Source: Unio delphinus
Lineage: Eukaryota > Mollusca > Bivalvia > Unionida > Unionidae
NCBI GenBank assembly: GCA_029339505.1
Contig: JAQISU010000025.1
Coordinates: 4,067,501-4,131,500, forward strand
DNA: 64,000 nucleotides
Reading direction: 5' to 3'
Shown here: one piece after another, positions 1-21,138 of the stretch
How the letters are laid out: each line of letters starts with the position of its first letter
How positions within the stretch are numbered: the stretch's first letter is position 1
Notes under the pieces: model-generated
Seen by the model: the letters and a program-made list of their open reading frames with translations, nothing else
The model's database searches: none
Told to the model about the DNA's origin: nothing
Made by a program: the position numbers and the translations under genes

Positions 1-66
1 TCCTTTTTGGACGGCAGAACGACGAGGGTAGTGGCGGTGGTGGTGTGCATGTTTTTGAGGAGGCAT
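1..66 (-). CDS. N-terminal fragment of a leftward gene, product unknown
   Basis: A leftward frame is open from an ATG at 66-64 to the window edge, giving 22 codons rich in His and Arg. A second ATG at 50-48 opens another frame that also reaches the edge, so the frame is not settled. A TATA-like sequence on the minus strand at 130-136 lies about 65 nt upstream of the first ATG, in line with the other genes of this element. Too little is visible to assign a product. By position it would continue the leftward gene series, where structural genes would be expected. Confidence 0.35.
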   Translation of the reverse strand, partial: MPPQKHAHHHRHYPRRSAVQKG

Positions 67-129
67 CCTTGAGTGTTCATCAGTGGTACAGAAAAAATAC
101 TGATTGACGTCGTGGTTTTCAAGTCATAT

Positions 130-136
130 TTTTATA
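130..136 (-). promoter_or_regulatory. TATA box of the leftmost gene, overlapping the core-protein stop codon
   Basis: The minus strand reads TATAAAA here. The TAA inside this motif (134-132) is also the stop codon of the core-like gene, so promoter and stop codon share bases. This shows how tightly the element is packed. Confidence 0.5.
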
Positions 137-1031
137 CTGGAATGCGTCGCCACTGATTATCTTTGCGTCGTATCAACTTCATGGCAGGTAACACACGTCG
201 TGAAGGAGTTCGCAATGGACTCAATCGGGACAGTTCTTGTTTGGACAAATCTAGTAAACTCTTTAACATGCCAGATCTTTCTTGGACTTTGACTTTAGGG
301 GCTGGTACTTTGTGAGCAGCTGCTACTGCCGCTAAGGTGGACGAGGGTGTCTCCGGTGGAGGAGACGTTTTGGGAGACGCAGATTTCCAATGTTTCATCA
401 AATTAGGAAAAACGGGTGTCAAATTGGGTTTGGCTGGCATCACCCGCAACGGAGAAGTGGCAGCCCCTGAGGCTACTGGCAACGTAGTCCCTGCCAAACG
501 TCCTTGTAGATCTTTTCTTACAGGTCGTGGTTGACGAAGGTAAGGTTGTGTCCTGGCCGAAGTGCCTCTTTTGCGGGTGACCGCTTTTTTCTGTGGACTT
601 TTCTTTTTCTGTGCTTTGGTCTTGGTACCCTTGTTCTTTTTCTTAGGGGCTTGTTTGGCTTTTTTTGTTTTCTTCTTGGGGTGAACTTTGGGAGTATTGG
701 GATCCCATTTTAAAAGGGAACGAATGATGACACCTCCTAGAGAACCACTGCCTCCAGGTTTCAATATGATTTGCTTTTTGGTGTGAGTGTCAATGCGAGG
801 ATTGGCCAGTTGCGTCAAGGCTACTTTGTTTCTGTCAAAAAAGCGTTTGGTTTGATGTGGAAGGTGAATGATGCCTTGCAGTATTTGACGTGCTGTCACC
901 GTAAACCATCGTAAGACTTCTTTGAGACTGGCTTCTAAGACGTGAGCACGTCTTTGTGGATTTTTTTCGCGACTGATGCCGTACAAGGCACGAATCAATT
1001 TGATGGGAAGATGAGACTGAAGGGACGTCAT
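132..1031 (-). CDS. Basic core-like protein (adenovirus X-like motif)
   Basis: The product is 299 residues from the first ATG (1031-1029); the frame opens further upstream but only from a TTG. The N-terminal third is predicted helical. It ends in a segment where basic residues are followed by a Gly-Gly turn and an aliphatic stretch (GGSGSLGGVIIRSLL), a pattern I associate with core or minor-capsid proteins of adintoviruses. A lysine-rich run follows (KKKTKKAKQAPKKK), then a Pro/Ala-rich linker and a basic C-terminus. This composition suggests a DNA-condensing virion core protein; that role is inferred. A minus-strand TATA box lies 40-46 nt upstream. The stop codon overlaps the TATA box of the next leftward gene. 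Confidence 0.65.
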   Translation of the reverse strand: MTSLQSHLPIKLIRALYGISREKNPQRRAHVLEASLKEVLRWFTVTARQILQGIIHLPHQTKRFFDRNKVALTQLANPRIDTHTKKQIILKPGGSGSLGGVIIRSLLKWDPNTPKVHPKKKTKKAKQAPKKKNKGTKTKAQKKKSPQKKAVTRKRGTSARTQPYLRQPRPVRKDLQGRLAGTTLPVASGAATSPLRVMPAKPNLTPVFPNLMKHWKSASPKTSPPPETPSSTLAAVAAAHKVPAPKVKVQERSGMLKSLLDLSKQELSRLSPLRTPSRRVLPAMKLIRRKDNQWRRIPV

Positions 1032-1070
1032 GTTGACGATGTATGAGACCAGGTCAAAGTAACCCAAGGT

Positions 1071-1077
1071 TTTTATA
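1071..1077 (-). promoter_or_regulatory. TATA box of the core-like gene
   Basis: The minus strand reads TATAAAA 40-46 nt upstream of the ATG at 1031. The same spacing class recurs at other genes of element 1. Confidence 0.55.
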
Positions 1078-1100
1078 GATTTTTTTAGTGCTTCATAGTG

Positions 1101-1832
1101 TTATGTCGACGAGGAGGACGTGTACACGACAGGTCCTCCGTCTTGACACCAGTCGTGAAACAAATCGGTACGAAATCGCAAATAATCAGGGGTAGTGGGT
1201 TTTAAATCCACGAGTAAATAGGCGTGTGGCGTTTGAGTGGCATCATCGTACGCATGAGTTAGCCAAGGTGTTCCTAACTGTTTGGCTAAAACTTGCACTT
1301 GTGATTTATCTCGAGGACTTTTAAACAAGACCACGTAATGAGCATTGAGACTAATGGTACGATGGGCTTTACTTTGTTGAAATAAATTTTGCGTAATGTA
1401 AATGACACTGGCATTACGATGATGCCCTTTACGTGTAAACCATAGTTTAATTTCTTCTTCGTCTTCTCCTAACATGTCGTCAAAAATAACCCAATGAGTT
1501 TGACTAGGGTCAGACACGATCCCCTCGTCTTCTTTAGGAATGCCTGCTACAAACACAATGGAATCACCTTGACTTTCTTGCAAGAGGCTGTATGCCGATT
1601 GCCACTCTTTGTAACACCACACGATGCGTTGAGGTGGACGATCGATCAAATGATGTTTATGTTCGATCAAACGTTTGACAAATTCGGTTTTGCCTGAACC
1701 GCTCGGTCCAGCAATTAACATGTTAAAAGGATGACGAAGATACAAGGCTTTCCAACTAGCCTGATCTAAGTGTTCGTCAATGACTTTGAATGTGGAGGAG
1801 GAAGGAGTAGTAGAAAGAGTAGAGTGAGCCAT
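1101..1832 (-). CDS. FtsK/HerA-type genome packaging ATPase
   Basis: The product is 243 residues from the ATG at 1832-1830; an upstream in-frame TTG is less likely because the TATA box lies only just before it. A P-loop GPSGSGKT sits near residues 41-48. A Walker B strand ending VIFDDM sits near 114-119. A TRKGHHRN segment follows, with an ITQN motif soon after it that fits the sensor-type Gln/Asn of packaging ATPases. In Polintons and adintoviruses this enzyme pumps the genome into the capsid using ATP. Length fits the family (about 220-260 residues). It lies between the core-like gene and a small membrane protein gene. No lesion is visible. Confidence 0.85.
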   Translation of the reverse strand: MAHSTLSTTPSSSTFKVIDEHLDQASWKALYLRHPFNMLIAGPSGSGKTEFVKRLIEHKHHLIDRPPQRIVWCYKEWQSAYSLLQESQGDSIVFVAGIPKEDEGIVSDPSQTHWVIFDDMLGEDEEEIKLWFTRKGHHRNASVIYITQNLFQQSKAHRTISLNAHYVVLFKSPRDKSQVQVLAKQLGTPWLTHAYDDATQTPHAYLLVDLKPTTPDYLRFRTDLFHDWCQDGGPVVYTSSSST

Positions 1833-1884
1833 AGTCGTGTAGTGGTATGTCAGTATTGACACAAAAACAGACAAGACAAGAGGT

Positions 1885-1891
1885 TTTTATA
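1885..1891 (-). promoter_or_regulatory. TATA box of the ATPase gene
   Basis: Minus strand TATAAAA lies 53-59 nt upstream of the ATPase ATG at 1832. Confidence 0.55.
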
Positions 1892-1907
1892 CTTTTTTCA
1901 AGACACG

Positions 1908-1913
1908 TTTATT
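1908..1913 (-). terminator. Poly(A) signal AATAAA after the membrane-protein gene
   Basis: The plus strand reads tttatt just left of the stop codon at 1925, giving AATAAA on the minus strand about 12 nt downstream of the stop. Confidence 0.5.
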
Positions 1914-1924
1914 TCAATGCATGT

Positions 1925-2290
1925 TTAAATTCGAACAACACGAAAACATAAAAGCCAAATAGATAAATACAGGAATAAAATACCTAGGCAAACGATCAAA
2001 GTGGCATATAAACAAGTCACTGTACAACGTGGTTTGGGTAACGAAGGTGTCCTAGAGGTAGTATGTAATGTTCTTATAGTCTCCTCTACAGGGGGTATAG
2101 TCACATACGTGTCTTCTCTAAAGGGTCTTTGTGGGGAAATGTCCATGACAGTTCTGTCTTGAACAGAAGGATTGTCTTGGGTGACAGATTTTTTTTCTTC
2201 TTCTTCTTCTTCTGGTACTGTTACTAACACAGGTTTAAAAGTGACTTTTTTCACTCGACGATGCATTTTAGGAACACAACGCTTGGGCAT
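1925..2290 (-). CDS. Small C-terminally anchored membrane protein
   Basis: The product is 121 residues from the ATG at 2290-2288. The frame is open further upstream, but that would overlap most of the neighbouring gene. The N-terminus is basic. An acidic run (EEEEEE) follows, then a Ser/Thr/Pro-rich middle. The last 30 residues are a long hydrophobic helix with several Cys (for example LIVCLGILFLYLSIWLLCF) and only a few residues after it, so it should be a tail-anchored or type II membrane protein. The start overlaps the end of the 82-residue gene by 23 nt. I do not recognise a family. A virion or host membrane role is only a guess. Confidence 0.6.
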   Translation of the reverse strand: MPKRCVPKMHRRVKKVTFKPVLVTVPEEEEEEKKSVTQDNPSVQDRTVMDISPQRPFREDTYVTIPPVEETIRTLHTTSRTPSLPKPRCTVTCLYATLIVCLGILFLYLSIWLLCFRVVRI

Positions 2291-2516
2291 AATGGGATAC
2301 TTCGTTTGTCCAAGCCTCAAAATCCCAACTTTGCCAGTCACGTACATCTGTCCAATGAGGGTGTAAATCACAAGCTACACACACATCTTCGTACACTGCT
2401 TCCGTACGTAAAAGTTGACGAATCTTTTTTTCTTGGAAAGGTCGAGATGTATCCAGATGAAAACGTAAGGCTTTGAACAGAATAAGTCTCTCGTGGACAT
2501 TTAAAGGAACCACCAT
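2268..2516 (-). CDS. Unknown 82-residue protein
   Basis: The frame starts with ATG at 2516-2514 and ends at 2268, overlapping the next gene by 23 nt and lying 6 nt after the previous gene's stop. The product is soluble and helical in its first half, then carries a short Cys/His group (CVACDLHPHW) and a Trp/Asp-rich end (WTDVRDWQSWDFEAW). The Cys-x2-Cys-x2-His arrangement could bind zinc but is incomplete. No family is recognised. Its tight packing with neighbours on both sides is the main reason to call it a gene. Confidence 0.5.
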   Translation of the reverse strand: MVVPLNVHERLILFKALRFHLDTSRPFQEKKIRQLLRTEAVYEDVCVACDLHPHWTDVRDWQSWDFEAWTNEVSHYAQALCS

Positions 2517-2522
2517 ACTGTC

Positions 2523-2741
2523 TTATTTTTTTGATAGGTAGTGTTCGTAAAGTGTCCACAAGGAATCGGCAGGTAAACGAAATCCCAGAAAGCAAGTCAC
2601 TAAAACACACACGAGACGTCGACCCCAATTCATAGGGTATAGTTCTTGCAATAAGTGTTCGTAATCTTTCACTGTGTGAATCTTCTCATTGATATCCTTC
2701 CACGGAATCTGTTGGATCACCAATGATAAAGGTTGTGGCAT
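2523..2741 (-). CDS. Unknown 72-residue protein
   Basis: The frame starts at ATG 2741-2739 and ends 6 nt before the ATG of the 82-residue gene. The product has a helical N-terminus and a hydrophobic stretch (RLVCVLVTCFLGF) near residues 41-53 that is too short to be a sure membrane span. A minus-strand TATA-like motif (2752-2758) lies only 11-17 nt upstream of the ATG, closer than for other genes of the element, so the true start or transcription start may differ. No family is recognised. Confidence 0.45.
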   Translation of the reverse strand: MPQPLSLVIQQIPWKDINEKIHTVKDYEHLLQELYPMNWGRRLVCVLVTCFLGFRLPADSLWTLYEHYLSKK

Positions 2742-2775
2742 GGTTTTTCTCTTTTATACTTCTTTAGGTCAAAGA

Positions 2776-3159
2776 TTACAAGTGTAGATTCAACTCAGAA
2801 TTAAACACAGAATTAAATTTGCACAAAAAGCGAAAGTGATTAATATAACGTGTAATTTCGTCCCACTGCCATTCAGGGTAACGGTTAAGAAGGATCAAAG
2901 CATCTTCAGAGGTAAACGTAGTAAATTGGTAACAGAGCAAAAAAATACCCTTAATCCAGAGAAATCTAACACGTCGGTTAATTTTTGTCACTTTCCTCTT
3001 GTGAATTTCACGACACAAAAGTTCTACAGTCACCCCTTGAGATTTTTCTTTAGCAAGGCCTTGCCAAACGTCCTTGTAGATCTTCTCTTGCAATTCACGA
3101 GGCAATCCTTGAATATTATGTTTTATATTATATACTGGTCTAGGTGTGTTACACGACAT
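2776..3159 (-). CDS. Unknown 127-residue protein with an LxCxE motif
   Basis: The frame starts at ATG 3159-3157. The sequence holds LLCRE, an exact L-x-C-x-E match, at about residue 48. In small DNA tumour viruses this motif binds the retinoblastoma pocket, and adintoviruses have been reported to encode small 'oncoid' proteins with it. Near the N-terminus LPRELQEKIY looks like the start of an F-box helix, but the rest does not follow. The remainder is helical and aromatic-rich with no membrane span. The gene sits between the small-protein run and the BIR gene. A cell-cycle role is inferred from the motif only, and the motif can occur by chance. Confidence 0.55.
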   Translation of the reverse strand: MSCNTPRPVYNIKHNIQGLPRELQEKIYKDVWQGLAKEKSQGVTVELLCREIHKRKVTKINRRVRFLWIKGIFLLCYQFTTFTSEDALILLNRYPEWQWDEITRYINHFRFLCKFNSVFNSELNLHL

Positions 3160-3171
3160 GGAGTAGTAGTG

Positions 3172-3720
3172 TCACTTCCAATCATTAGGTCCCACTAAAG
3201 GTAGGTATTGACAATTCGGAGACCATCGAGCATGTTCCAGGTAAGCGGAATCTTTCTGTTCCCACTCGTAAATGGATACACCACAACTGAAACACTTGAC
3301 TTTATCCCCTTCGCCCAAGTAGAAAAATCCGGCTCTGGCTAATTCTTCAGGAGTTGGTCCAGGCAGATATTTTGGCCATTTATCTTTGAAGGTTTGAAAT
3401 CGACTTTTAAAGTGGCAGTATTCAGGCAAACTCGTCGGGAACGAATATTCGACTCTCCTCACTTCTGTTCGATGCAGGTACGGTGAAATTCCTAGGAGTC
3501 CACGATAACGTGTCGCACTGCTTTCGCATCCCTCAGGTTTGACACGCACAGCATCACTTTCCAGGGTAGATATAGGGGTAGTAGTCATAGCAACGTTCCT
3601 ACGATATCCTGCTGAATCGCTAACGTCACAGAGCCTGGCATCACTACAATCACAAGGTTTAGCATCGCACTCCACTTGAGAATTCCCAAATTTGAATGAT
3701 GTCTGTTTAAATGGATTCAT
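3172..3720 (-). CDS. Viral inhibitor-of-apoptosis-like protein with one BIR domain
   Basis: The product is 182 residues from ATG 3720-3718. A single baculovirus IAP repeat spans about residues 98-172. It shows the complete zinc signature Cys-x2-Cys-x16-His-x6-Cys, beginning CFSCG and ending HARWSPNC, with a preceding LARAGFFYLGEGDKVKC segment typical of the fold. No RING finger follows; the protein ends just after the BIR. The first 95 residues are Cys/Ser/Thr-rich and unassigned. BIR proteins bind caspases or their activators and block apoptosis. Whether this one does needs test, since a lone BIR without RING can also act otherwise. It lies between the polymerase gene and the LxCxE gene, and the reading frame is intact. 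Confidence 0.85.
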   Translation of the reverse strand: MNPFKQTSFKFGNSQVECDAKPCDCSDARLCDVSDSAGYRRNVAMTTTPISTLESDAVRVKPEGCESSATRYRGLLGISPYLHRTEVRRVEYSFPTSLPEYCHFKSRFQTFKDKWPKYLPGPTPEELARAGFFYLGEGDKVKCFSCGVSIYEWEQKDSAYLEHARWSPNCQYLPLVGPNDWK

Positions 3721-3754
3721 CTTCTTTTCGCTTAGCTGTGTTAGTCACAATAAA

Positions 3755-6700
3755 CTATTGGTCTTGGACAATGTCCCTTTTTATATGCTGCCCGATTTCG
3801 ATGTGACCGTACGGTAGAGTGAAGTGATTGGGAAGTCGTACTCTCTTTTGGTACACGATTTGGTAGACTTTTTCCAAAGGTCGGCTAACGATTTGGTGTG
3901 TGGGTAAACGGACAATCTTGTGCGGTTCGTGGGTAGTCACTTGAAACGTTTCATCCTGTCCCGACTGTAAGGCTTCTTGAAGCACGTCAAAGTTCACCAC
4001 TTGACTGGTGCGATAATTAAGAGTCAATCCTTTCACTTTACATTTGGTGTGCATTTTTCCTTGGGGGTCTCGGTATTCGTAGCCGTAATTTTTAGGACCG
4101 CCACTTGCAAAACTTAGAATCTTGTCGTCGGGATGTTCATCGGTCCAGGCTCCTAAACGGTCTCCTTCGATGACAGGGTTACAATCGTTCGGTCGGTGAA
4201 TGTAGATGCAACTGTCTGTGTCAAAATACAACACGCGATCTCCTAACAGTTCTAACACTTCGTACAATTTTAAGCGAGCGTGGGCTGTCACGTAAGCCGC
4301 AATGATGACATTTCCAAATTTGTCGGCTTCTACAAAGTCTAGTTCTTCTTCGTAATTGACTAAGATCAAGTCCTCACGAATGACGTCCACGTGTTTCATG
4401 ACTTTGGTTGGGTCGTGAATCATCTGGAAGTAGCGAGACGGCTCGGACAAATACTCCGTCTTGGGTAAAGATGGACGTTGTGCCATTTTACCCCACAAAC
4501 AATTGAGCATGACTTTGGCAAACGATCGCCTTCCTTCATTTTTCTCGATGTGGTCTAAAGTGATACCTTCCTGCTCCCGATATTTTTCTTTGAATATCTT
4601 TTGGTCTTCGGGAGTGTGACACCAGGAAGGATAGCCACTAGCTTCTTGTTTTAGTTTTAAAAAGGAATCCACGTAGTCTGCAAAAATACCTTTCTGTCTC
4701 TCGTCGCCCTTGCGGTATTGTTGTGTTTTGGGAAAGTGGTAAATTTCGTACACTTCTAACAGTTGGTATCCCAGGTCCAGAGCTTTAAACAATTCCACAC
4801 TCACCCACGTTCCTGTCAAGGTACGTTCTTCCTGAGTGTGATGACAAGGTTGGTCTTGGTTGCACGTTTCGGCACATGTGCGACACAAAGGAAACATCAG
4901 TTTTCCTTGGCAATGGTGAGGTAAAACGGGATGGTACAAGTCTGTGGGAGGCAAGACTTTACACTTGATCAATCCTTCGTACTGACGAATGTGGTCCAAG
5001 TCAATGTGTTCTGTCATCAATTCTGGATGACCTACGGGAAAGTGACAATATTTACACACGTAAGGATACAGCGAACACACGTCCAAGTATTTGATTTCTT
5101 CTTCTCCTTTCTCCTCGTCCGCCTGGTACAGCAAACAAGTGGCATTCGTTCGTCCTCCGTACAAACTATCCCGAGGGTTCAATGGGTCCACCCACTTGTA
5201 ACTTTCTACGATGCGTTTAAACTCGGGATCGGTTTTCAAACGCTGATCGTACTCGTGTTCCCACATTTCCACTACCTGGTATCCTTGCTGTTCTAACTTG
5301 AAACGTCGTTGACACGTGGTCTGGTACAAATCTTCCATAGTTCGTTGTAAAAACTGATTTTTGATGTCACGCTGAGGGTAGCACATAGGGCATCCGTGAA
5401 ATAAGCATCCGTTAAACTCGTACACGATTTGAGGGTTTTCTAAGTCCCAACCATCCACTGAATACGTTCCAATAATCTTTTCGCCTCCTCCGTTGCGAGA
5501 GTGTTGGATCCATTTGTCTTCCTTGTCGCACAAGTAATGGAGCCAGCGTAGGGCTTTGACTGAGTATTGACGTTTAACAAAGTTCGTCGTTTGAGGACTG
5601 ATGACCGCTAGAGTATTTTCAGGCATAAAGCGTTTTCGGTACACTAAAGAACACGCTTTGGCGATGGTACAAGCTTCTTTCAAAGGATCGATCCCTCCGT
5701 ACTCCATGAACAATTCTCGAAATTTTCCACAGCAACGTCGTAAAATGTCCACGTCAGATCGACAGTACTTTAACATTTCTTCTTGAAAGTCAAAAAGGTC
5801 CGAGGCATGAGTCTGGTACCAAGCGAAGAAAGCTTCTCGTTGTTCGGTACGCATGTTGTCAGGGTCGTAATAGTGAGCCTCCGGCAAATGGGGTAGAACG
5901 GCATATTGATTGGCTTCGGTATTGAAAAAGTGTGGAAAATAACCTTTAACCAATTCTGTCATTCCAAACGTTTTAGGCATGCGACTCAATGGCATGGCCA
6001 AGTAACACATCGAATCTTTAAACTGTACTTGTCCTACTTGCATAGAAATGATTTTAGCTCCGTTCAAAGTCACTTGAGGTCGTTCGGTACATTGTTCCGC
6101 ATAGTATCTGAGCAGAAATTGCCCATCGTATCCCGAAAAATTGTGAGCCATGACCGTAGCATGGCAATGACAATTACCGTAACGTTCGATGTCTTCTGTA
6201 CTCCACGTTTCGTCAATGGGGTTTAAGATCCATTGGGCAAACTTGGCTAACGTGTTTGACCCTCGAAAGATTTTTTCACGTCCTCCAGGAATCTTGTTGC
6301 AGTGAGGGCAATAACTAAAGATAGGTTCTTGGATGCACTGTTCGCACGCACGGTGAGCTACGCAGAAATTGGGAATGTGAATACCGGTTTCTTGCATGCA
6401 TTCGAAATCAAAAAAGATAAAATTCCCTTTCTTCTGGGTATCTTCTGAATGGGGTTTGTATTTTTGAATGAAGCATTCGTGTTCCAAGTCCACGATTTGG
6501 TGACAAATGTGACATCGTTTCTTCCCTCGACAAACGTGAAACTTGGCACTATTGGTACGTATGCCTTGTCCACAAGTAGGGCACAATCTCAGAAGTTGAC
6601 AAGTGTTTTTCTGCTGTGAACCTTGCATCTTCAAATGTTGTTGGTAACAGGTAGGACTGACAAAAGTGCGCTGACACACAGGGCAATGCACTCTTTCTTT

Positions 6701-7828
6701 TCCTTGGTCCAGACAAGGTTGTGAGGCTAAACATCCCTCACATTTTGATCCACAATGTTTGTGTTGTTCTCGATTGTTATAACCATAGTCACATTTTTCA
6801 CAGTAGTAACCGTATCCCAGGAATCCAGTGATACTGGTAATGGTATCAAAATGCTCATCGTGATGATAGACGTGAATGTATTTTCCGTCTTTGAAATCGT
6901 GGCCTCGAAACAAAAGAGGTCCACGCACTTCTTGAGGGTGTACTTTCAAAGTGTAACGTGGAGACAAGACGTCTTGTAATTGTTGCATTTCTGGAATGCC
7001 ACAAGGAGTGTCTTTGGATATCCCCGCTTGCTGTAACAGGAGTTCTGCTTCACTTCGTTGTTTGGCTCGGTCCGATTGTTGAATAGTTTTCCAGGCTCTT
7101 TTCCATTCTGCCGTGTCGTTCTTGTTGGCATACGTTCGTCCCACGACGACAGCACGGGCTAAACACATCTGGTCTTGAGGATTGTTAATTCGGACGAGAC
7201 TTAGTTTGGTGCTGCGAAGGCTGTCGACCAATAATACTTTTTTGCGTCCTGTCCCCTGGGGAAGGGACACGTGGGTCATGAACAGTGTGGCTTTTCCATC
7301 GTCAATGTGAAACTTGTCATTGGATTGTTGCACATGTTGAATTTTGTCAATGACTTTAGAAGGTGTCAGTTCTGATGGACTAGTAAATTCGATCCAAACG
7401 GGAGACTTTAAATTATCGTGATGAATAGAAAGTCTCAAGCGATCGTCTTCTTTGGCTTGACATTGCTGTTTCAGTGCAGTTAACACAGAATCCCACACCT
7501 CAGTAATGAACCCTTCTGTATTCTCCAAAGGTACATTGGACTTGAAATCTTTAAACTTTACGGCATACGTGTAAGCCGTTGTTCTAAATTTTCGAGAGGA
7601 ACGCTTTTCTGTCTCTCGAATGTGATAGTAATTTTCAGGGTTAACTAAGGGTAGTGTACTTTGCTTGGACGTCGATTGCTTAGGTGTAAATTCGGGCTCA
7701 CTCATGTCATCTTCAAAATCACTGGCATGAATTTGAGCCAAGACTTCAGCTACTGTACTAGGCGATACATTACGTTTCTGTCTCTTACTGTCTTTTCCTT
7801 TCTCCACAGCATGATGTGACCTTTTCAT
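3755..7828 (-). CDS. Protein-primed family B DNA polymerase (Polinton/adintovirus type)
   Basis: The product is 1357 residues from ATG 7828-7826. The N-terminal third is unassigned up to a Cys/His-rich zone (about residues 340-460) with several CxxC pairs, likely zinc-binding. Exonuclease motifs follow: DFEC near 474, NFSGYDGQF near 563, and YCRSDVD near 686. Polymerase motif A (YLDVCSLYPY) is near 912, motif B (LNCLWGKMAQ) near 1107, and motif C (YFDTDSC) near 1200. This is the DNA_pol_B_2 architecture of protein-primed polymerases that replicate linear genomes with terminal inverted repeats. All catalytic acidic residues are present and the frame is unbroken over 4 kb, which argues for recent activity. 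It shares a divergent promoter region with the zinc-knuckle gene. Confidence 0.95.
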   Translation of the reverse strand: MKRSHHAVEKGKDSKRQKRNVSPSTVAEVLAQIHASDFEDDMSEPEFTPKQSTSKQSTLPLVNPENYYHIRETEKRSSRKFRTTAYTYAVKFKDFKSNVPLENTEGFITEVWDSVLTALKQQCQAKEDDRLRLSIHHDNLKSPVWIEFTSPSELTPSKVIDKIQHVQQSNDKFHIDDGKATLFMTHVSLPQGTGRKKVLLVDSLRSTKLSLVRINNPQDQMCLARAVVVGRTYANKNDTAEWKRAWKTIQQSDRAKQRSEAELLLQQAGISKDTPCGIPEMQQLQDVLSPRYTLKVHPQEVRGPLLFRGHDFKDGKYIHVYHHDEHFDTITSITGFLGYGYYCEKCDYGYNNREQHKHCGSKCEGCLASQPCLDQGKERVHCPVCQRTFVSPTCYQQHLKMQGSQQKNTCQLLRLCPTCGQGIRTNSAKFHVCRGKKRCHICHQIVDLEHECFIQKYKPHSEDTQKKGNFIFFDFECMQETGIHIPNFCVAHRACEQCIQEPIFSYCPHCNKIPGGREKIFRGSNTLAKFAQWILNPIDETWSTEDIERYGNCHCHATVMAHNFSGYDGQFLLRYYAEQCTERPQVTLNGAKIISMQVGQVQFKDSMCYLAMPLSRMPKTFGMTELVKGYFPHFFNTEANQYAVLPHLPEAHYYDPDNMRTEQREAFFAWYQTHASDLFDFQEEMLKYCRSDVDILRRCCGKFRELFMEYGGIDPLKEACTIAKACSLVYRKRFMPENTLAVISPQTTNFVKRQYSVKALRWLHYLCDKEDKWIQHSRNGGGEKIIGTYSVDGWDLENPQIVYEFNGCLFHGCPMCYPQRDIKNQFLQRTMEDLYQTTCQRRFKLEQQGYQVVEMWEHEYDQRLKTDPEFKRIVESYKWVDPLNPRDSLYGGRTNATCLLYQADEEKGEEEIKYLDVCSLYPYVCKYCHFPVGHPELMTEHIDLDHIRQYEGLIKCKVLPPTDLYHPVLPHHCQGKLMFPLCRTCAETCNQDQPCHHTQEERTLTGTWVSVELFKALDLGYQLLEVYEIYHFPKTQQYRKGDERQKGIFADYVDSFLKLKQEASGYPSWCHTPEDQKIFKEKYREQEGITLDHIEKNEGRRSFAKVMLNCLWGKMAQRPSLPKTEYLSEPSRYFQMIHDPTKVMKHVDVIREDLILVNYEEELDFVEADKFGNVIIAAYVTAHARLKLYEVLELLGDRVLYFDTDSCIYIHRPNDCNPVIEGDRLGAWTDEHPDDKILSFASGGPKNYGYEYRDPQGKMHTKCKVKGLTLNYRTSQVVNFDVLQEALQSGQDETFQVTTHEPHKIVRLPTHQIVSRPLEKVYQIVYQKRVRLPNHFTLPYGHIEIGQHIKRDIVQDQ

Positions 7829-7965
7829 CTTGTCTGCAAAAAGTCAAATGACTACCTTTTAAAGACCATAACCCCTATATATTCATGTTCGATCCGTGCA
7901 TATATATATAAAGGGTTAGTGTCTAACGGTTCAGTATTCCTTTCACTCTCACATTGACCAGAACG
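7829..7965. promoter_or_regulatory. Divergent promoter region, polymerase (-) and zinc-knuckle gene (+)
   Basis: This 137-nt gap separates two divergent start codons. A plus-strand TATA run (7901-7914) lies about 55-60 nt before the ATG at 7966. A minus-strand TATATA-like motif lies near 7877-7883, about 50 nt before the polymerase ATG. The minus strand also reads a pyrimidine run followed by CAG just before the polymerase ATG, which could act as a splice acceptor. Confidence 0.5.
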
Positions 7966-8436
7966 ATGGAAGAACCTACACAAGTGGAACTTCTCATTAG
8001 AGCTTTACGTGGGGTCATACGAAAGTTTTCGTCAGACCAGCCGACAGCCTACTCTCCCTCCTATCGAGATAAAAGTCAAGATACTTGCTATATCTGTAAG
8101 AAGAAAGGACATTGGGCTACAGAATGTTCAGATCGTAACAAAAATAAAAAAGGCTACAATAGAGACAAAAGTCAAGATACCTGTTATTATTGTAAAGAGA
8201 AAGGACATTGGTCTCCAAACTGCCCTAAGAAACAACAGGAGCAGGAGGAGGAGGAGGAGGTGGAGGAAGAGGAGGAGGAGGAGGAAAGAAATTCTGAACA
8301 GGAGGAGAAAGAGGTACCCTCCTCCAAGGAAGAACCCCGTCACGTTCACAAAAACAAGAAAAGAAGACGAAACGAAAGTGAAGAGGAAGAAAAAAAAGCT
8401 GTGACAGTAAAGAAAATGAAAAAACAGAAAGAGTGA
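7966..8436 (+). CDS. Double CCHC zinc-knuckle protein with acidic/basic tail
   Basis: The product is 156 residues from ATG 7966; an in-frame TTG upstream is less likely given the TATA spacing. Two zinc knuckles match Cys-x2-Cys-x4-His-x4-Cys: CYICKKKGHWATEC and CYYCKEKGHWSPNC. Both are preceded by the same DKSQDT string, so the unit was duplicated. The rest is a long Glu run followed by alternating Lys/Arg and Glu clusters (KNKKRRRN, KKMKKQKE). Knuckles of this kind bind single-stranded nucleic acid in retroviral Gag and in cellular CNBP. A role in genome or RNA binding is inferred. It is not part of a Gag protein: no capsid region is present. AATAAA at about 8519 follows the stop. Confidence 0.75.
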   Translation: MEEPTQVELLIRALRGVIRKFSSDQPTAYSPSYRDKSQDTCYICKKKGHWATECSDRNKNKKGYNRDKSQDTCYYCKEKGHWSPNCPKKQQEQEEEEEVEEEEEEEERNSEQEEKEVPSSKEEPRHVHKNKKRRRNESEEEEKKAVTVKKMKKQKE

Positions 8437-8697
8437 AACAGAAGAAAACCTATGAACTTTTTTAAAGTGGTCTTGTGTTATGTTATGTTGTGATATTGAA
8501 TTGTGTCGTTTGTACTAGAATAAACTAAAGAGAAAAAACGTAAGTGTCTCTTGGTTTTGATTTGATAGTATAATTACCTACACTCACACATTCATTCACT
8601 CACACGTACATCATGGGTTTTTAAAAACATAAAGGACTTTTGAGTTTTCATTGAAATAGGCAATTGACATAGTATTTCTTTTCGAAATAATTGGAGT
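8437..8697. other. Intergenic stretch with poly(A) signal
   Basis: The stretch between the zinc-knuckle stop and the first histone-type stem-loop holds AATAAA near 8519 (plus strand). At 8675-8684 it holds the purine-rich element of the leftward coiled-coil gene's 3' end. No coding potential was seen in the rest. Confidence 0.5.
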
Positions 8698-8713
8698 GGT
8701 CCTGAAAAGGACC
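8675..8713 (-). terminator. Histone-type 3' stem-loop and U7-like downstream element (coiled-coil gene)
   Basis: On the minus strand 8713-8698 reads GGTCCTTTTCAGGACC, a 6-bp perfect stem with a TTTC loop. It matches the metazoan histone mRNA 3' stem-loop consensus GGYYYTTHTHARRRCC at all 16 positions. It is flanked by AAC on the 5' side and AC on the 3' side. About 13 nt downstream is TCGAAAAGA (8684-8676), the purine-rich site that U7 snRNA would bind. The stem-loop starts 33 nt after the stop codon of the coiled-coil gene, as in histone mRNAs. Confidence 0.8.
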
Positions 8714-8746
8714 GTTGGTGTTTTGTGTATTTAAAACAAAACAAAC

Positions 8747-9385
8747 TCAGAAACGGGATGAAATCCTCTTGAGCTGTCTTAAGCCTTTGCCACGGCCAAG
8801 GCCTACTTCGGGACTGGTGGTTCCTGTCAATGATTTGGTAGAAATCACTAACGGTGGTAAGGTAGACGTAGTCACAGAGAGATCGGGTTGTTTCGCTCGA
8901 GAAGGTCTTTTTCTCTTCGGTCGTGATAAAGAAGTCTGATACATTTGTTTCAGACTCTTTAACTCAGCTAAAATATCTAAAAGTACCGTCGTAACCGTTT
9001 GATTTTCACTATTTTCTTTCTGTCCTTGGTCTTCATTCTTCTCCGTTGCTGCTACTGTTTCTTCCTGGTGTTTTCTTCTTGCTTCTTCTTCTTCCTGCTG
9101 TTGCATAAGAAAAGCTTGTTCTTCTACTTTCTGTTGTTGTAAAAATCGCTCCAATGCTTCTTTTTGTCTCTGCTTAAAATCATCGACGTGTCCATAAGAA
9201 GATACAGAAGGCAACGAAGGTTCCGGAATAAATTCTTGCGATGTTAAAAAATCCACAATATCCCAGTTAAAATCCACTTCTTCTGGATGTAGATTTGTCA
9301 TGACTTTAGTAGTCACTGTTGGTCCATGACTTGCTGTCTCTACTCCTGTCTCACTCCAATTCATTGTCTTCTTACTGTCCGCCAT
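8747..9385 (-). CDS. Coiled-coil protein with nuclear-localisation-like basic cluster
   Basis: The product is 212 residues from ATG 9385-9383; the frame is open 47 codons further upstream without an ATG start. A Gln/Glu-rich coiled coil (for example FLQQQKVEEQAFLMQQQ) covers about residues 75-125. A leucine-rich helix (VLLDILAELKSLKQMYQ) follows, then PKRKRPSRAK, a good nuclear-localisation signal. No known domain is recognised. A TATA motif on the minus strand lies 51-57 nt upstream, supporting this start. The mRNA would end in a histone-type stem-loop 33 nt after the stop, suggesting S-phase-linked, non-polyadenylated expression (inferred). It is divergent from the 77-residue gene. Confidence 0.6.
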   Translation of the reverse strand: MADSKKTMNWSETGVETASHGPTVTTKVMTNLHPEEVDFNWDIVDFLTSQEFIPEPSLPSVSSYGHVDDFKQRQKEALERFLQQQKVEEQAFLMQQQEEEEARRKHQEETVAATEKNEDQGQKENSENQTVTTVLLDILAELKSLKQMYQTSLSRPKRKRPSRAKQPDLSVTTSTLPPLVISTKSLTGTTSPEVGLGRGKGLRQLKRISSRF

Positions 9386-9603
9386 GATTGACAACTCTCT
9401 TGAATCGATTGACTGCGCACAGGCGCTAGTACCTCTATATAGAAAAGGTGACATCACAGACTGCTCTCTTCCGATTGGATGGCTGTGTCTGACTTTTGTA
9501 ACGCACGTTTGGATTGGTGGATACACTCAATCCGTTTCAATCCGCTCTTCCCCTATAAATAACCGCAGTACACGGCATTCAATTCACCTGTTCTCATCAG
9601 AAG
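9386..9603. promoter_or_regulatory. Bidirectional promoter of the two histone-stem-loop genes
   Basis: A minus-strand TATATAG (9436-9442) lies 51-57 nt before the coiled-coil ATG. A plus-strand TATAAATA (9554-9561) lies about 45-50 nt before the ATG at 9604. Repeated ATTGG/CCAAT-type boxes sit between them (near 9474, 9513 and 9534). This resembles divergent histone gene-pair promoters. Confidence 0.6.
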
Positions 9604-9837
9604 ATGTGGACTAATGTTGAATCGTCAACCCTTGTGTCAAGTATGCTGTTTAGGACTGACATACCCATGTATGTCAGATCATCATGGAGTGTCATTGATA
9701 GGACGGAGACAGCCTATTGGAAGAGAAGAGTCTATGTGGAAAGACAAGGTTGCTTGAAGAGAGTTCTCTTCTATGGACCCACAGTAAGGAGAAGTTTAAG
9801 GAAGAGAAGAAGATCTGTAAGATGTCCTCTGTGTTAA
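9604..9837 (+). CDS. Small basic protein of unknown function
   Basis: The product is 77 residues from ATG 9604. The C-terminal half is strongly basic (RRSLRKRRRSVRCPLC) and ends in a Cys-x2-Cys pair. It is not a histone by sequence. Support for the gene comes from the TATA box 45-50 nt upstream and the histone-type 3' stem-loop 27 nt after the stop. A shorter overlapping frame (ATG 9616, 46 codons) is also open and contains two CxxC-like pairs, so the translated frame is uncertain. A perfect 8-bp hairpin with a 4-nt loop (9657-9676) lies inside the frame. Confidence 0.5.
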   Translation: MWTNVESSTLVSSMLFRTDIPMYVRSSWSVIDRTETAYWKRRVYVERQGCLKRVLFYGPTVRRSLRKRRRSVRCPLC

Positions 9838-9864
9838 CAAGACAACGTTAACATTACACCTAAC

Positions 9865-9900
9865 GGTCCTTTTCAGGGCCACTCATAAGTCTCGAAAAGA
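9865..9900 (+). terminator. Histone-type 3' stem-loop and U7-like downstream element (77-residue gene)
   Basis: 9865-9880 reads GGTCCTTTTCAGGGCC: a 6-bp stem with one G-T pair and a TTTC loop. It matches the histone 3' consensus GGYYYTTHTHARRRCC at every position. CGAAAAGA follows 13 nt after the stem, the same purine-rich string at the same distance as in the partner gene. The element begins 27 nt after the stop codon. Confidence 0.8.
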
Positions 9901-9958
9901 TAGTAGCTTTCATTGCCACCCCTTTTTTCCTTGTTTTATTTCCCATGTTATATTTCCC

Positions 9959-10190
9959 TTGACGCTATATAGTCCCACTCTGTTCAATTCCCCTTGACGC
10001 TAGATAGACCCACCATGTTCAATTCCCCTTGACGCTAGATAGTCCCACCATGTTCAATTTCCCTTGACGCTAGATAGTCCCACCATGTTAAATTTCCCTT
10101 GACGCTAGATAGTCCCCACCATGTTAAATTCCCCTTGACGCTAGATGTTCCCAAGCTGTTTTACATAGGATTTTCCCATTGACGCTAGAG
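9959..10190 (+). repeat. 35-bp tandem repeat array, 7 units
   Basis: Units begin with TTGACGCTAGAT at 9959, 9994, 10029, 10064, 10099, 10135 and 10179; the first five intervals are 35, 35, 35, 35 and 36 bp, the last 44. The start of each unit (TTGACGCTA) is the best conserved part. The array lies between the last gene of element 1 and the first of element 2. It could be an origin or packaging iteron set, or part of a terminal repeat. No protein-coding sense is visible. Confidence 0.85.
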
Positions 10191-10268
10191 TATCCCCATA
10201 CACTACTACTGGTTCTCTTGTTTTAGTCGCTGAAAAATCAATTATATTCATATCTCTATACATAAATT

Positions 10269-10811: not shown

Positions 10812-11771
10812 ATGGAATCTATTTATTATTCTCCGAGAGGATACTGGAAGGGTAAAGCAGCAATCAGTAAACTCGCCAGCGCCGCAAAAGTGAAAAAGGC
10901 TACTGCGGCTAATTGGTTATCCAAACAGGCTATATGGCAAATTTATCTACCGCGTCCTAAACAAATCAATTTCTCGCATTTTGATGTTACCGGACCCAAT
11001 GAAGTTCATCAAGCTGATTTATTGTTTTTACCACATGACAACGGTTACAAATATGCGCTAACCGTAGTTGACGTTGCTAGTCGATACAAACAAGCAGAAC
11101 CGCTAAAAACAAAATCATCACCTGAAGTTGCTTCTGCATTTGAAAAGATTTATCGACGAGGCCCACTACGCTGGCCAAATCTGTTACAAGTCGATCCTGG
11201 CAAGGAATTTCAAGGCGCTGTTTTATCAGCGATGAAAGATCACAATGTCACCATCAGACGGGGGCATACTGCGTTACATCGTGATCAGGCAATTGTTGAA
11301 CGATTTAATCGAACCCTTGCTGAGCGGTTATTTGGATATCAATACGCGAAGGAGTTTATTCAGGATAAAAGATCCCGTGAATGGGTTAAGAGATTACCAG
11401 CTGTGATTACCGTGCTCAATAACGAGATTACTCGAACAATCAACATGAAACCTAACAACGCTATTAAAAAGAAGTATATACCTAAAATGGAAATCCAAGG
11501 AATTTCACAAAAAGATTTCAAAGAACCAATTCTTGGTAGTAATGTCACTGTTAGGTATTGATACGAACCAGGAGAGCTTGAGGGTGGTAAAAAAAGAGCT
11601 ACTGATCCTATTTGGAGTGTCACCGTACATAAAATATCTACTATAACACGATCAACTGGTAGACCAGCAATCTATAAATTGGATTCAACTGCCCCTCAGC
11701 GAGGATTTACTCGATAACAACTACAGGTAATTCCCGAGGATACTCAGTTACCACCGCGTGGTCTTAACTAG
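10812..11771 (+). pseudogene. Polinton-type retroviral-like integrase (two in-frame stops)
   Basis: The frame from ATG 10812 encodes an rve-fold integrase. The catalytic triad is visible: Asp in HQADLLFL (about residue 68), Asp in QVDPGKEF (about 128) and Glu in IVERFNRTLAERLFG (about 162), with about 35 residues between the last two. TVVDVASRYK is also typical of Polinton integrases. A TGA at 11559-11561 and a TAA at 11715-11717 break the C-terminal chromodomain-like part (EPGELEGGKKRATDPIW follows the first stop), with the natural end at TAG 11769-11771. Integrase joins the element's ends to host DNA. The catalytic core itself is unbroken. Confidence 0.9.
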
Positions 11772-11970: not shown

Positions 11971-14867
11971 TTATCGTTGTTTTTTTTTGTCTTGTTTTTT
12001 GTAACCGGAGAGTTTTTTATCAATAATTTTAACATCAACGATGCTAGCATCATCCATTGTAGCGTCATTATCATCCAGGACAACTCTTCGAAGTTGATTT
12101 ATTCTTCGTACTCTGGATACTGCAAGATAGACTAAATTCGACCATTCGATGTGACTATCCACCATCCAAACAATTGTATCCGATATAGTCAATCCCTGTG
12201 AAGAGTGTATTGTCGCTGCGTAACCTAACGTCCATCTTTAACGACGCTGATATCAACCAGCACAATATCATTTAATACGAGAATTTGTTTTTCACTTTGT
12301 CCTGGAATATCAACTTCTATATTCTGTTTTCGTGTATCCGAAGGCCTATAACACAACGGTACTGGAAGTGTTGCAAATTTTTCTTTATGCAATTCAAATA
12401 ACTTCATCTGAAGTGTGTCTCTGACTATTTTTCTACTTGCAATTATCAAATCGTTTGGTTTCCACGCTTCCCAAAATTTATTCATGGGAGTTTCTGAAAT
12501 TATTTCACGCGCTATTTCACATTGGATTTTATCCGGCTGTAATCTAATTAGAGCTTTGAACTCGCGTAATTGTTCATCAAGTGATCTATAATCAGTGGTA
12601 ATTTCTTCATAATAGTCTACAAAACCCTTTAGCAATTCATGTGGGGATGCACCGACAAATGGTGGTGGTTGGCCGTGATCACCGCACATGACGACTTTTG
12701 TGTTTTTGTTTAACAACCACTCGAGAAATATTTGTAATATTTTCAACGATACTGTGCATATTTCATCCCAAATTATGATTTCAGGAATGAATTTATCGCC
12801 CATTCGATTAGGGGTCCATTCATCGCCTTTCCATCGAAAGAAACTATGATAAGTAGAGGCATTTACCCCTCGTTGTTTCATCTCTCTGGCGAGTCTGTGA
12901 GTATGTGTCAGGACAATCATGTTTGATTTTGAAACGCTAGCGTTTCTATGATATAATTCAATTGAACGAGTTGTCTTTCCTGACCCACCACAACCGTTTA
13001 AATAAACTGTCTTGTATCTACATATTGGATCAGATTCCTCTGGTGAATTAGAAAATTCGGATTGAATCTCATTACACTTTAAGTACTTTTCATCCATGGT
13101 AACATCTGCCGATTCACAATACTCATGTAGCGTCTCCTTTTTAAATCTCCAACATCCCCACGCTTCCTCCTGGGATGTGAATTTAGCTACATCTGATTTG
13201 TATTTCTCGTGGATATACATAGAGTCAGTGGCTACTCTAACTGCGGTATTAGGAAATCTATTTATCATCGAAAATAAATTGATAGAAGCATAAGCTAGCA
13301 TAGAACTTCTCAAATGCGTATACTGTTTAATATATCCATCACAATAGGTAACAATTGTACCTAATCGTCTTCTATCGGATAGGAAAGCGTCTTTACGATT
13401 TACAACTTTTCCTTGTTTCGTTAAATCCGTTACAATAAAATCGTATTCAGCGATGTCTATGATCAACCGCGAGGAATATTTTGCATTGTCGTATATTCCA
13501 CCCTGGGTAAATTTACCGATTATTCTTCGTCCAAAATCTTTTGCTTGTTCTTTTTTAATTTCAAAAAACTTCTTAGACCAATTCATGATTTGTTCTTCAT
13601 TGAAATTCTTCGAATTTCCATCTGGAAACTGTTTTCGCTGTTCGCTAATTATACGATCTAAATCGGGTTGTGGTAGCCAAACTTCTTTCTGAGCTCGATA
13701 GCATATAATAGCTTCGGAAACAATCAACGATATTAGCATACCACAATCAATCATATATCTTTGTAACACTATTGGCATCCAGGCCTTTTCAGATATATGT
13801 CTACCAAGCCAAACATAACTACACGGATGTAACCCTGTAGCGAGTTCAAATGATATCACACGAGCGAATCCGGTTATATCAAAATCATTAATCGCAACAC
13901 GAGTCATTTCATGTGTGGGGTGTCCAAATCGTTTAAAATAGTTACTACATTCTCCATACCCGAGGAAACTTCCAGGATAACACGCGGATATATCAATTGA
14001 AATCATACCGCCACGATGGTATTTTGTATTCCACAGTCCTCCATGACTAAATTCGACACAACTCAATTTAACGTCCTCGAGAAAATCACTTTGTGTTGGA
14101 CGCCATGAGTTTTTTTCTCTTGCGAAGTGAGCTACCACTGATGGAATATTAAAACTATCCGTTAATAGTTTTTCATGGGAACTCTCCGGTGAAAAATCAC
14201 TAGCGATTTTTCTCATTCTGTTATCTAATTCTTCAACGCGATATAATTCACCATTTGGTCTTACAAATTGATCAAATCCTATTTCGGGATCTTCATCACT
14301 TCTAAGTAACCACACTGACACAGGATCATCTTTACACAACGCATGAATAGCATCGAATAATTTCTCATTATAAAAAACATCCCCGACGAATTCTGGGGGG
14401 ATATATTTCACGGTTCTATCTCGTGGAAATATTGTTACTGCAGGTGTCCACGCGTGTTTGTTATGATCAATAATTTGTATTGGCGCTCCATTTTTGTTAT
14501 ATTTCGGTTCGTATAAAACTTCTCGGGTTATCGTCATAACGGTTATTGGGAATCTTAATGATGTTTCTAATTTAGCTATATCAGAAATCTTTTCACCGTG
14601 CTGTTTCACTGTCAGTTCCCATTCGATTATTTTCCTACGTCGCAGATCAGTTAGTTTATTTCCTCGGGATGCATTTGTGAAGTGTTCCATTACCCGTGCT
14701 GCTACACAATTCAGTGAACTAGAATATTTCATAGGAGCTAGTTTTGCAATATCGGGTTTATCATTTAACGGAGATATCCCATAAACAATTGCTGTTACTG
14801 GATAAGATCTCTCGTAGTATGGTTTGTCAATTCCAGTTAGAATTCCTGGTTTGGAATCTCTACTCAC
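11971..14867 (-). pseudogene. Family B DNA polymerase fused to SF1 helicase (frameshifted near C-terminus)
   Basis: An 880-codon leftward frame starts at GTG 14867-14865. Polymerase motif A is DISACYPGSF near residue 290; motif B (GRRIIGKF) is near 446; motif C is VATDSMY near 545, an ATDS variant of DTDS. No exonuclease motifs were found. The C-terminal part is an SF1 (Pif1/RecD-like) helicase: Walker A GCGGSGKTT near 624, Walker B IIIWDE near 697, and GDHGQPPP near 729. A frameshift near 12230 moves the last helicase motifs (IHSSQGLT and YLAVSRVRR) into another frame ending at 11971. The fusion differs from the stand-alone polymerase of element 1. The start overlaps the stop of the 207-residue frame upstream, so the two may have been one gene. 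Confidence 0.85.
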
Positions 14868-19724: not shown

Positions 19725-21138
19725 ATGTTTAAACGACAAGCTGATCCCGCGTTTGATATAGAAGCCCCAGTACCCAAGGACAATTCCGTTCGCGATTATC
19801 AATTTTATTCCTATCATGCAATACAAGCAGATATTCGATCGCGAATTGAACTTTAGGTCCATGATACCAGCAAATACTTTTTGCCGTGTGAAGCGTTTAT
19901 CGAAGTAGAAGGAGAACTTGTACGACTTACTGATACTCCTGCTGTACCTGCACCGTATCCAGATGGTACCAAAGTCGGCTTAGTCAATAATGGTATCATG
20001 GCGCTATTTGAATCCGCGAGATATGTCATTGACGGAAAAGAGATTGAGTCTATAGAACGTGATGTTGATGTGGCTACAGCAATAATTTGGTTAGCAAGAT
20101 ATTCCGACGATTATACAAGATCAGCAGGTCCGTCTATGATGTTTGCAAAGGAAAATAAAAACACTGCTGGACCCACTCAATTTATTGTACGACGACCAAA
20201 TAATAATGCTGGCGCTGCTGTTGTTGATGTCGAAAATATGATTATAAATACTGATCCCCAGTAAAATCTAGGAGCTGAAACACGAATAGCAATGTTGGCA
20301 GGACAGCGTAAATCGTTTTCATGTGCGATTCCGTTGCATCATATATTTGGATTCTGTAGAAATGTACGAAAAGTTATTTATGGAGCGAAGCATACAGTAG
20401 TACTCGTGCGAAAGGGTAGTGACAATGATGCAATCTGGAGAATTCCAGCGGATCTTGCAAATCCAGATGCTGACGCTGGTAAAGTCATTTTAACTAAATT
20501 GGTCTTGTGGATGCCAGTAATGACCCCATCAATTACCACGGAAGAGCGGCTACTTTCATTTATGGACACAGGTGGCAAATCATTGCTAAGTTGGCTAACA
20601 ACAACAACAGATGTTAAGCAATCAAATATCAATGGTACATTTACTTGGAACTTGGCATCACAACAAGGCGTTTTAGCTCCACGTCAAATATTTATCGCGT
20701 TGCAGGATATGACAAGAGTGGAATCACAATTGCACAGTCATATGATATTTGATCAATTAGGAGTTACTGAGGTCTCGTTGAGAATATATGGCCAGCAGGA
20801 ACCATCCGAAGACATACAACTTAATTTCGGTCAAAACCATATTGCTCGCGTGTACCATCGTATGCTGTCATATATGGGCCGTGATCAAAATGTTGATACT
20901 GGTTTGCAAATATCGCAACATGATTTTAAGAACTTGTATCCGATCTACTACTTTTCACTGGAACATCTTGATTTAACAAGGCAATCCGTCGTTGATATAC
21001 TCTTCAGAGCCAATGTCCTTCGTGGCGCTATTACTAATTATAGAGCGGTTGCTGTTATTCTCAGCGACAAATCAAAACTTGTTAGAAGGAGCTGGCGGAC
21101 GAATGAGACTTATTGATGCACCAGTGGAAAATCTATGA
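19725..21138 (+). pseudogene. Double jelly-roll major capsid protein (two stops, one frameshift)
   Basis: From ATG 19725 one frame runs to about 21077, broken by TAG 19854-19856 and TAA 20262-20264. A frameshift near 21075 moves the last residues to another frame that stops at 21136-21138. Conserved stretches include AIPLHHIFGFCRNVRKVIYG, SDNDAIWR and KLVLWMPVMTPS, which I recognise from Polinton double jelly-roll capsid proteins. In the virion this protein would form the hexon-like trimers. All three lesions lie outside these strings. About 470 codons is the expected length. The TTGAAAA motif lies upstream and the protease gene starts 18 nt after the end. Confidence 0.85.

Follow-up and report, generated by a model that had tools for sequence, protein, structure and literature searches.

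Histone-type 3'-end signals on five non-histone genes of an integrated adintovirus-like element in the genome of Unio delphinus

Introduction

In the 3'-end pathway of replication-dependent histone mRNAs, as outlined in PMC9756948, SLBP binds the stem-loop (SL), U7 pairs with the histone downstream element (HDE), and the histone cleavage complex with CPSF73 cuts between the two, adding no poly(A). An Rfam 14.8 scan of 8300 Polinton-like virus and virophage genomes counted six histone 3'UTR stem-loops without discussion, and recorded none in the cryptophyte elements (PMC12220804). These six matches resemble the signals described below in being of the RF00032 type, at the gathering score, and in lying in elements related to ours, but they are only counted; the section on them gives no position, gene, HDE or function (PMC12220804). 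The initial annotation of the present locus knew of no described adintovirus or Polinton with this signal. That statement has to be amended by the six matches and otherwise stands, since we found no other precedent: in the accessible text of open-access papers naming both adintovirus and histone, the histone stem-loop is mentioned only in PMC12220804, and the accessible text of a viral-histone review (PMC9145170) mentions neither stem-loop, SLBP nor polyadenylation.

A bracovirus-encoded viral histone H4 likewise links a virus to host histone regulation (PMC12819152). In that case the gene itself is a histone variant that represses host H4, whereas the genes studied here are non-histone and only their 3' signal is histone-like (PMC12819152). 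Herpesvirus transcripts processed by Integrator (PMC9006982) also show a virus drawing on host 3'-end machinery that is not the cleavage and polyadenylation apparatus. That machinery differs from the one considered for our element. The herpesvirus transcripts concerned are small noncoding RNAs, not mRNAs.

In this study, we analysed a 64 kb stretch of the genome of Unio delphinus (the window) together with two pieces, L071 and L073, that adjoin it on the left. We found that five genes of one integrated viral element end in a stem-loop and downstream element of the histone type.

Results

An integrated adintovirus-like element

The host genome comprises 2.5 Gb in 1246 contigs. Element 1 spans positions 4057290 to 4077707 of contig C27 (about 20.4 kb), and its right part lies in the window. 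The features that define it are as follows; positions are those of the window unless a piece is named.

1..10207, no strand: part of element 1 in the window; L071 and L073 hold the remainder (G000:C27:4057290-4067500)
3172-3720, minus strand: viral BIR-domain protein (PF00653, 84.8 bits)
3755..7828, minus strand: family-B DNA polymerase, no SL (PF03175, E 3.1e-41)
7966..8436, plus strand: CCHC zinc-knuckle gene, convergent with p235, no SL, with AATAAA 83 nt past the stop
9869..10207, no strand: right terminal inverted repeat (TIR) with 35-bp tandem repeats, found by alignment to the left copy
L071 5093-6205, minus strand: integrase with C-terminal chromodomain (rve E 1.5e-12; Chromo PF00385 E 1.2e-7, 32 bits)

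In an alignment of 341 columns, the two TIRs show 2 mismatches and 35 gap positions, the latter amounting to roughly one repeat unit; both TIRs are filled by the 35-bp tandem repeats (window 9943-10190; L073 290-520). The 6-bp target duplication ACTGGT flanks the element on both sides. An A32-type packaging ATPase was identified (Pox_A32, 29.8 bits; cut-off 22.8), and a protease match (PF00770) scored 15.0 bits, below its cut-off of 21.3. The 439-aa protein, the putative capsid homologue, has no Pfam match of its own, and among its 120 listed relatives one carries the PF21738 (double jelly roll) tag. This protein has 2179 relatives among 7993 scored; unnamed ENA and JGI proteins rank highest, at 80-87% identity, and among the matches listed the named relatives come from bivalves, namely Mercenaria (54-55%) and Crassostrea and Ostrea (46-48%).

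Element 1 resembles adintoviruses and Polintons (Mavericks) in its PolB, rve integrase with chromodomain, A32/FtsK-like ATPase, putative capsid homologues, TIRs and 6-bp duplication, and differs from them in carrying histone-type 3' signals. From this gene content we infer that it is an integrated adintovirus (Polinton/Maverick-type virus). The chromodomain of the integrase suggests chromatin-guided integration, and the BIR-domain protein is possibly an inhibitor of apoptosis. A 127-aa protein (window 2776-3159, minus strand), whose gene lacks an SL, carries LLCRE at residue 47. This is an instance of the LxCxE motif, which viral proteins use to bind Rb, and five residues may match by chance.

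Element 1 sits inside element 2, a second Polinton-like element (window 10208 onward; L073 1-289) with genes for an integrase (10812-11561), a helicase (12225-14732) and a double-jelly-roll capsid (20292-21116). The sequences on either side of element 1 align next to each other on a continuous part of L031 (81-86% and 79%), with their junction at 4548-4553.

Two stem-loops at the right end of element 1

The right end of the element holds two divergent genes, each followed by an SL and a downstream element. Here and below, the gene names p195, p155, p186, p235 and p77 were coined in this analysis.

8677..8684, minus strand: CGAAAAGA, putative HDE of p235; GAAAA lies 14 nt past the end of the SL, a spacing shared with host H1 and H2A
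8698..8713, minus strand: SL GGTCCTTTTCAGGACC, histone-type, 3' of p235; exact consensus match, RF00032 35.3 bits
8747..9454, minus strand: p235 gene, 235-aa frame, supported by 18 homologous proteins, their alignment and a structure model
9386..9603, no strand: divergent p235/p77 promoter (sequence and motif scan), with TATA boxes at 9436-9441 and 9554-9559
9604..9837, plus strand: p77 gene, small basic protein with homologues P0019 and P0020 at 83-84% and no Pfam match
9865..9880, plus strand: SL GGTCCTTTTCAGGGCC, histone-type, 3' of p77; exact consensus match, RF00032 27.7 bits
9893..9900, plus strand: CGAAAAGA, putative HDE of p77; GAAAA lies 13 nt past the end of the SL, a spacing shared with host H2B, H3 and H4

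The initial annotation had described both 16-nt SLs as matching the consensus at all positions, 27-33 nt past the stop codon and in the same sense as their genes, which share a bidirectional TATA promoter. Our measurements agree on each count, with zero mismatches to GGYYYTTHTHARRRCC, stop-to-SL distances of 33 nt (p235) and 27 nt (p77), both SLs and both copies of CGAAAAGA in sense, and a TATA box on either side of the promoter. The annotation had also put CGAAAAGA 13 nt past both SLs, which holds for p235; the distance for p77 is 12 nt. The 3' part of the p77 SL lies inside the right TIR, as does the p77 HDE. A simple pattern search found no E2F sites in the promoter, and in the diverged copy L010 the motif scan found a TATA box on the p77 side only.

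The consensus GGYYYTTHTHARRRCC has only these two exact matches in the 64 kb window, and shuffling the window 100 times gave at most one per shuffle. A scan with RF00032, as the annotation had proposed, placed the p235 SL above the gathering score of 34 (E 1.6e-6), but the p77 SL below it (E 0.0011). RF00032 was the sole Rfam family to exceed its own gathering score in the window, by virtue of the p235 copy, and a different Rfam identity for the two hairpins was rejected, as no other family scored there. Folded alone, the p235 SL region reached -12.7 kcal/mol, which none of 200 shuffles equalled; the p77 SL region was unremarkable, with 42 of 200 shuffles folding equally well.

Five cassettes on accessory genes

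The initial annotation counted two viral SL genes. Both are real, but the total is five, the other three lying to the left of the window: a third cassette follows the 186-aa gene p186 in L071, and two more follow p155 and p195 in L073. The order is p195, p155, p186 at the left end of element 1 and p235, p77 at the right end. None of the five is a core gene, each lies close to an end of the element, and together they make up 5 of the 21 genes counted. No SL follows any of the other 16, among which are the core genes, including those for the putative capsid, polymerase, integrase and ATPase.

In all five viral genes, the SL is in sense and lies 20-41 nt past the stop codon, and GAAAA follows it at a spacing of 13-14 nt, as it does in all five host histone cassettes described below. 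Three of the SLs match GGYYYTTHTHARRRCC exactly. The first stem pair of the p155 and p186 SLs is A-U instead of G-C, which is why the strict consensus missed them. Their flank is ACCCA. Such a flank is typical for histone SLs. RF00032 gave the five cassettes 35.3 (p235), 33.2, 30.9, 30.9 and 27.7 (p77) bits, so that one of five reaches the gathering score.

A scan of the element 1 pieces yielded five SLs with complete pairing, each accompanied by GAAAAG at the proper position, whereas neither such an SL nor an SL+HDE cassette turned up in the remaining 53.8 kb of the window. In 300 shuffles of the element pieces, SLs occurred at a mean of 0.027 (maximum 1) and SL+HDE in none. A chance origin of the SLs was rejected on the shuffle counts, both for exact matches and for SL+HDE. 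The five cassettes are not independent sequences, since those of p77 and p195 (90% identical) lie largely within the two inverted-repeat copies, at their inner edge, and those of p155 and p186 are 81% identical.

Neither AATAAA nor ATTAAA was found after p186, p235 and p77 in the 151, 300 and 300 nt past the stop, and in p195 an AATAAA spans the gene's own stop codon. The lack of poly(A) signals after SL genes is not significant, because only 5 of the 16 non-SL genes have one within 300 nt.

The SL-gene proteins

The p235 protein probably starts at the Met at 9385, where 11 of 18 homologues begin, with the TATA box at 9436-9441. Its structure model has a mean pLDDT of 62 and is mostly disordered, with two long helices (88-139 and 149-176). 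The p77 protein is basic, with 17 K+R against 5 D+E. No histone-family match was found in Pfam for p235, p77, p195, p155 or p186. For p235 and p77, this bears out the earlier claim that the proteins are not histones. A histone protein or fold for the SL genes was considered and found no support from Pfam or from the p235 model. The five proteins show no recognisable homology to one another (best E 0.06). From the position of their genes and the divergent promoter, our guess is that they are early proteins.

Comparison with host histone genes

Histone genes are repeated in tandem on contig C15 (L048, L049), where five frames end in SL and GAAAA(A)G, 29-38 nt past the stop. Pfam confirmed four of the frames, namely H2A, one linker histone and two other core histones that we called H3 and H2B by sequence. 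The fifth frame has no Pfam match at E 1e-10 and was called H4; its N-terminus equals the H4 tail quoted in PMC12819152. These five genes scored 29.2-41.5 bits with RF00032, and host H4, at 29.2, is itself below the gathering score.

The viral cassettes share with the metazoan replication-dependent histone 3' end (RF00032; SLBP/U7 snRNP) the sequence and six-pair stem of the SL, its U-rich tetraloop, the A-rich 5' flank and the AC-type 3' flank. Compared with host H1, H2A, H2B, H3 and H4, they also share GAAAAG at 13-14 nt, the short stop distance and uninterrupted frames. They differ in that the genes are viral and non-histone, and in that two of the five viral SLs have an A-U basal pair. The p235 cassette is 81% identical overall to that of host H1, and a stretch of p155 matches the 3' region of host H2B (75.8% over 66 nt).

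We aligned all ten cassettes, five viral and five host. The six stem pairs form in 10 of 10, with all 60 pair cells paired, and changes on both sides are seen at pair 1 (GC to AU) and pair 3 (CG to UA). Of 500 shuffles, 3 attained the covariation score of this alignment. Among the five covariation measures, two did not stand out, namely double-change pairs (86/500 shuffles) and pair types (336/500). Covariation events are few because changes are shared within classes (p77/p195 in the TIR copies; p155/p186 at 81% identity).

Copies elsewhere in the host genome

In the genome search with RF00032, 75 of 434,796 candidates were scored, 74 were listed, and 71 of these 74 were read. Three of the 71 top loci are host H2A genes; beside the SL of the 68 others, a p195 relative was found in 47 and a p77 relative in 14, with PolB nearby in one; six were left unassigned. 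Among the 71 top places read, viral genes far outnumber histone genes. The p195 and p77 counts are biased, since these loci were fetched for their SL, and only those for p155, p186 and p235 are free of this bias. Six loci (L009, L023, L054, L056, L057 and L061) have an RF00032 match and a GAAAA-like element with no recognised gene adjoining; they may be decayed viral copies or further clients.

The 13 diverged copies of p155 comprise seven with a full SL, four with one or two changes and two with a decayed SL. Across 14 copies of p155, the SL does not stand out from the sequence around it (mean identity 0.869 vs 0.76-0.87; rank 59 of 238 windows), and the HDE, at 0.938, has the highest identity of the six segments compared in the 3' region. 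Seven diverged p235 copies have enough flank, and of these one has an intact SL, two a decayed one (L013, L050), one a doubtful remnant (L068), and three, on one contig, none. Besides L071, ten loci match p186. Three reach the C-terminus, with a full SL (L047), a broken pair (L033) and no SL (L063); among the seven that stop short of it, no SL was found in the five examined. L010 keeps both right-end cassettes, at 43.1 and 35.8 bits with RF00032.

A protein search of the genome with p235 found at least 150 copies among 5860 candidates, counting the one in the window; all those shown are 100% identical, and 149 of 150 are without a stop. SL and HDE are identical in 20 of 20 near-identical copies sampled. 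These near-identical copies show a very recent burst of an adintovirus-like element, not independent conservation.

Relatives outside the genome

Protein databases contain 18 relatives of p235 and two of p77, all on short contigs. P0014 (p235) and P0019 (p77) come from contigs of equal size (1455) and the same sources, and therefore probably share one contig. P0015 (p235, 59% identity) and P0020 (p77, 83%) have read-through tails past the usual stop. Back-translation of the extra residues allows an SL in both tails, with 15 of 16 positions agreeing, and CGAAAA exactly 12 nt further on; shuffled tails did as well in 5 of 5000 cases for P0015 and 14 of 5000 for P0020, in a test devised after the tails had been seen. 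These tails therefore seem to encode the SL signal. The database relatives may be integrated copies of a related host.

No relatives were found in IMG/VR, from which records very near the host genome were possibly left out. GTDB contigs gave one locus, L072, in a mussel-symbiont assembly; it is a decayed copy from a mussel, matching the capsid at 42%, and no SL was found in this distant copy. Near its capsid gene, L072 11734-11798 matches the twister-P1 ribozyme at 28.9 bits (gathering score 67.2), probably by chance. The histone-type 3' trait thus appears to belong to the lineage of element 1 and its near relatives.

Discussion

There is strong support for the view that non-histone viral genes here carry 3'-end signals of the histone type, because SL, flanks, spacing and downstream motif equal those of the host's histones, on five genes without recognisable kinship. 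The cis elements needed by the histone pathway are present on all five in host-like form. Judged from these sequences, it is very likely that the five non-histone genes of element 1 use host SLBP/U7 3' processing. Host SLBP would bind the viral stem-loop, U7 snRNP would pair with the GAAAAG element, and CPSF73 would cut between the two. The resulting viral mRNAs would have a cap but no poly(A) tail, and they would build up and be translated in S phase, when SLBP is plentiful. We infer the lack of poly(A), the U7 snRNP cleavage and the S-phase coupling of these mRNAs from the signals they carry. Accessory, probably early, viral proteins would thereby come under S-phase control, and the core genes would have ordinary or shared 3' ends.

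Three other explanations were weighed against processing by SLBP and U7. The SL might bind SLBP only for stability, export or translation, with 3' ends made otherwise, e.g. by downstream polyadenylation, and with no U7-dependent cleavage. In line with this, searching the genome gave no host U7 snRNA: the best RF00066 score was 27.5 bits against a cut-off of 34, with matches also in 12 of 14 control genomes; a motif search returned 26 matches versus 26 in the reversed control; and of four candidates read, two had no stable 3' hairpin and two had weak ones. The AATAAA across the p195 stop codon also fits, and human H4 pre-mRNA, in the account of PMC9756948, likewise has a poly(A) signal upstream of its SL. 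Such a role for SLBP alone is nevertheless unlikely in our judgement: GAAAAG stands at the histone spacing in all five viral cassettes, the HDE is the best conserved segment of the p155 3' region, and p186, p235 and p77 lack AATAAA and ATTAAA over the stretches given above.

The two TIRs have the p77 and p195 cassettes at their inner edge, a location that would suit hairpins that act on DNA, in replication, packaging or integration at the element ends, with an incidental likeness to histone genes. We regard this as highly improbable, since three of the five cassettes are internal, all five are in sense at 20-41 nt past a stop codon, and loop, flanks, spacing and HDE equal those of histone genes, which DNA-level use does not require. 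Hardly more credible is that the cassettes came from host histone genes, or along with them, and now ride as idle passengers, even though the likeness of p235 to host H1 and of p155 to host H2B, together with the lack of extra SL conservation within p155 copies, points in that direction; moreover, host rRNA captured by Polinton-like viruses was judged probably non-functional in the part of PMC12220804 that deals with it. Against idle passengers stand the single position rule followed on five genes, the full pairing kept in the A-U basal-pair class, and the traces in database relatives at 59% and 83% protein identity.

Taken together, the data favour 3' processing of the five viral mRNAs by SLBP and U7, which we rate as a known 3'-end machine with what would be a new class of client, namely non-histone viral genes. 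It is fairly probable that element 1 represents an animal DNA virus with two 3'-end gene classes, in which the accessory genes at both ends would give rise to non-polyadenylated, S-phase-restricted mRNAs via SLBP, U7 snRNP and possibly the histone locus body.

If true, these would be the first non-histone protein-coding genes known to have the histone pathway as their normal 3' end in animals, and a virus with a histone signal on its accessory genes would be a clear exception. Natural non-histone clients would allow us to ask which parts of the cassette suffice. RNA evidence may come easily if the near-identical copies, at least 150 in one genome, are transcribed. The finding, if true, would show an integrated DNA virus timing its expression to host replication without a sensor of its own.
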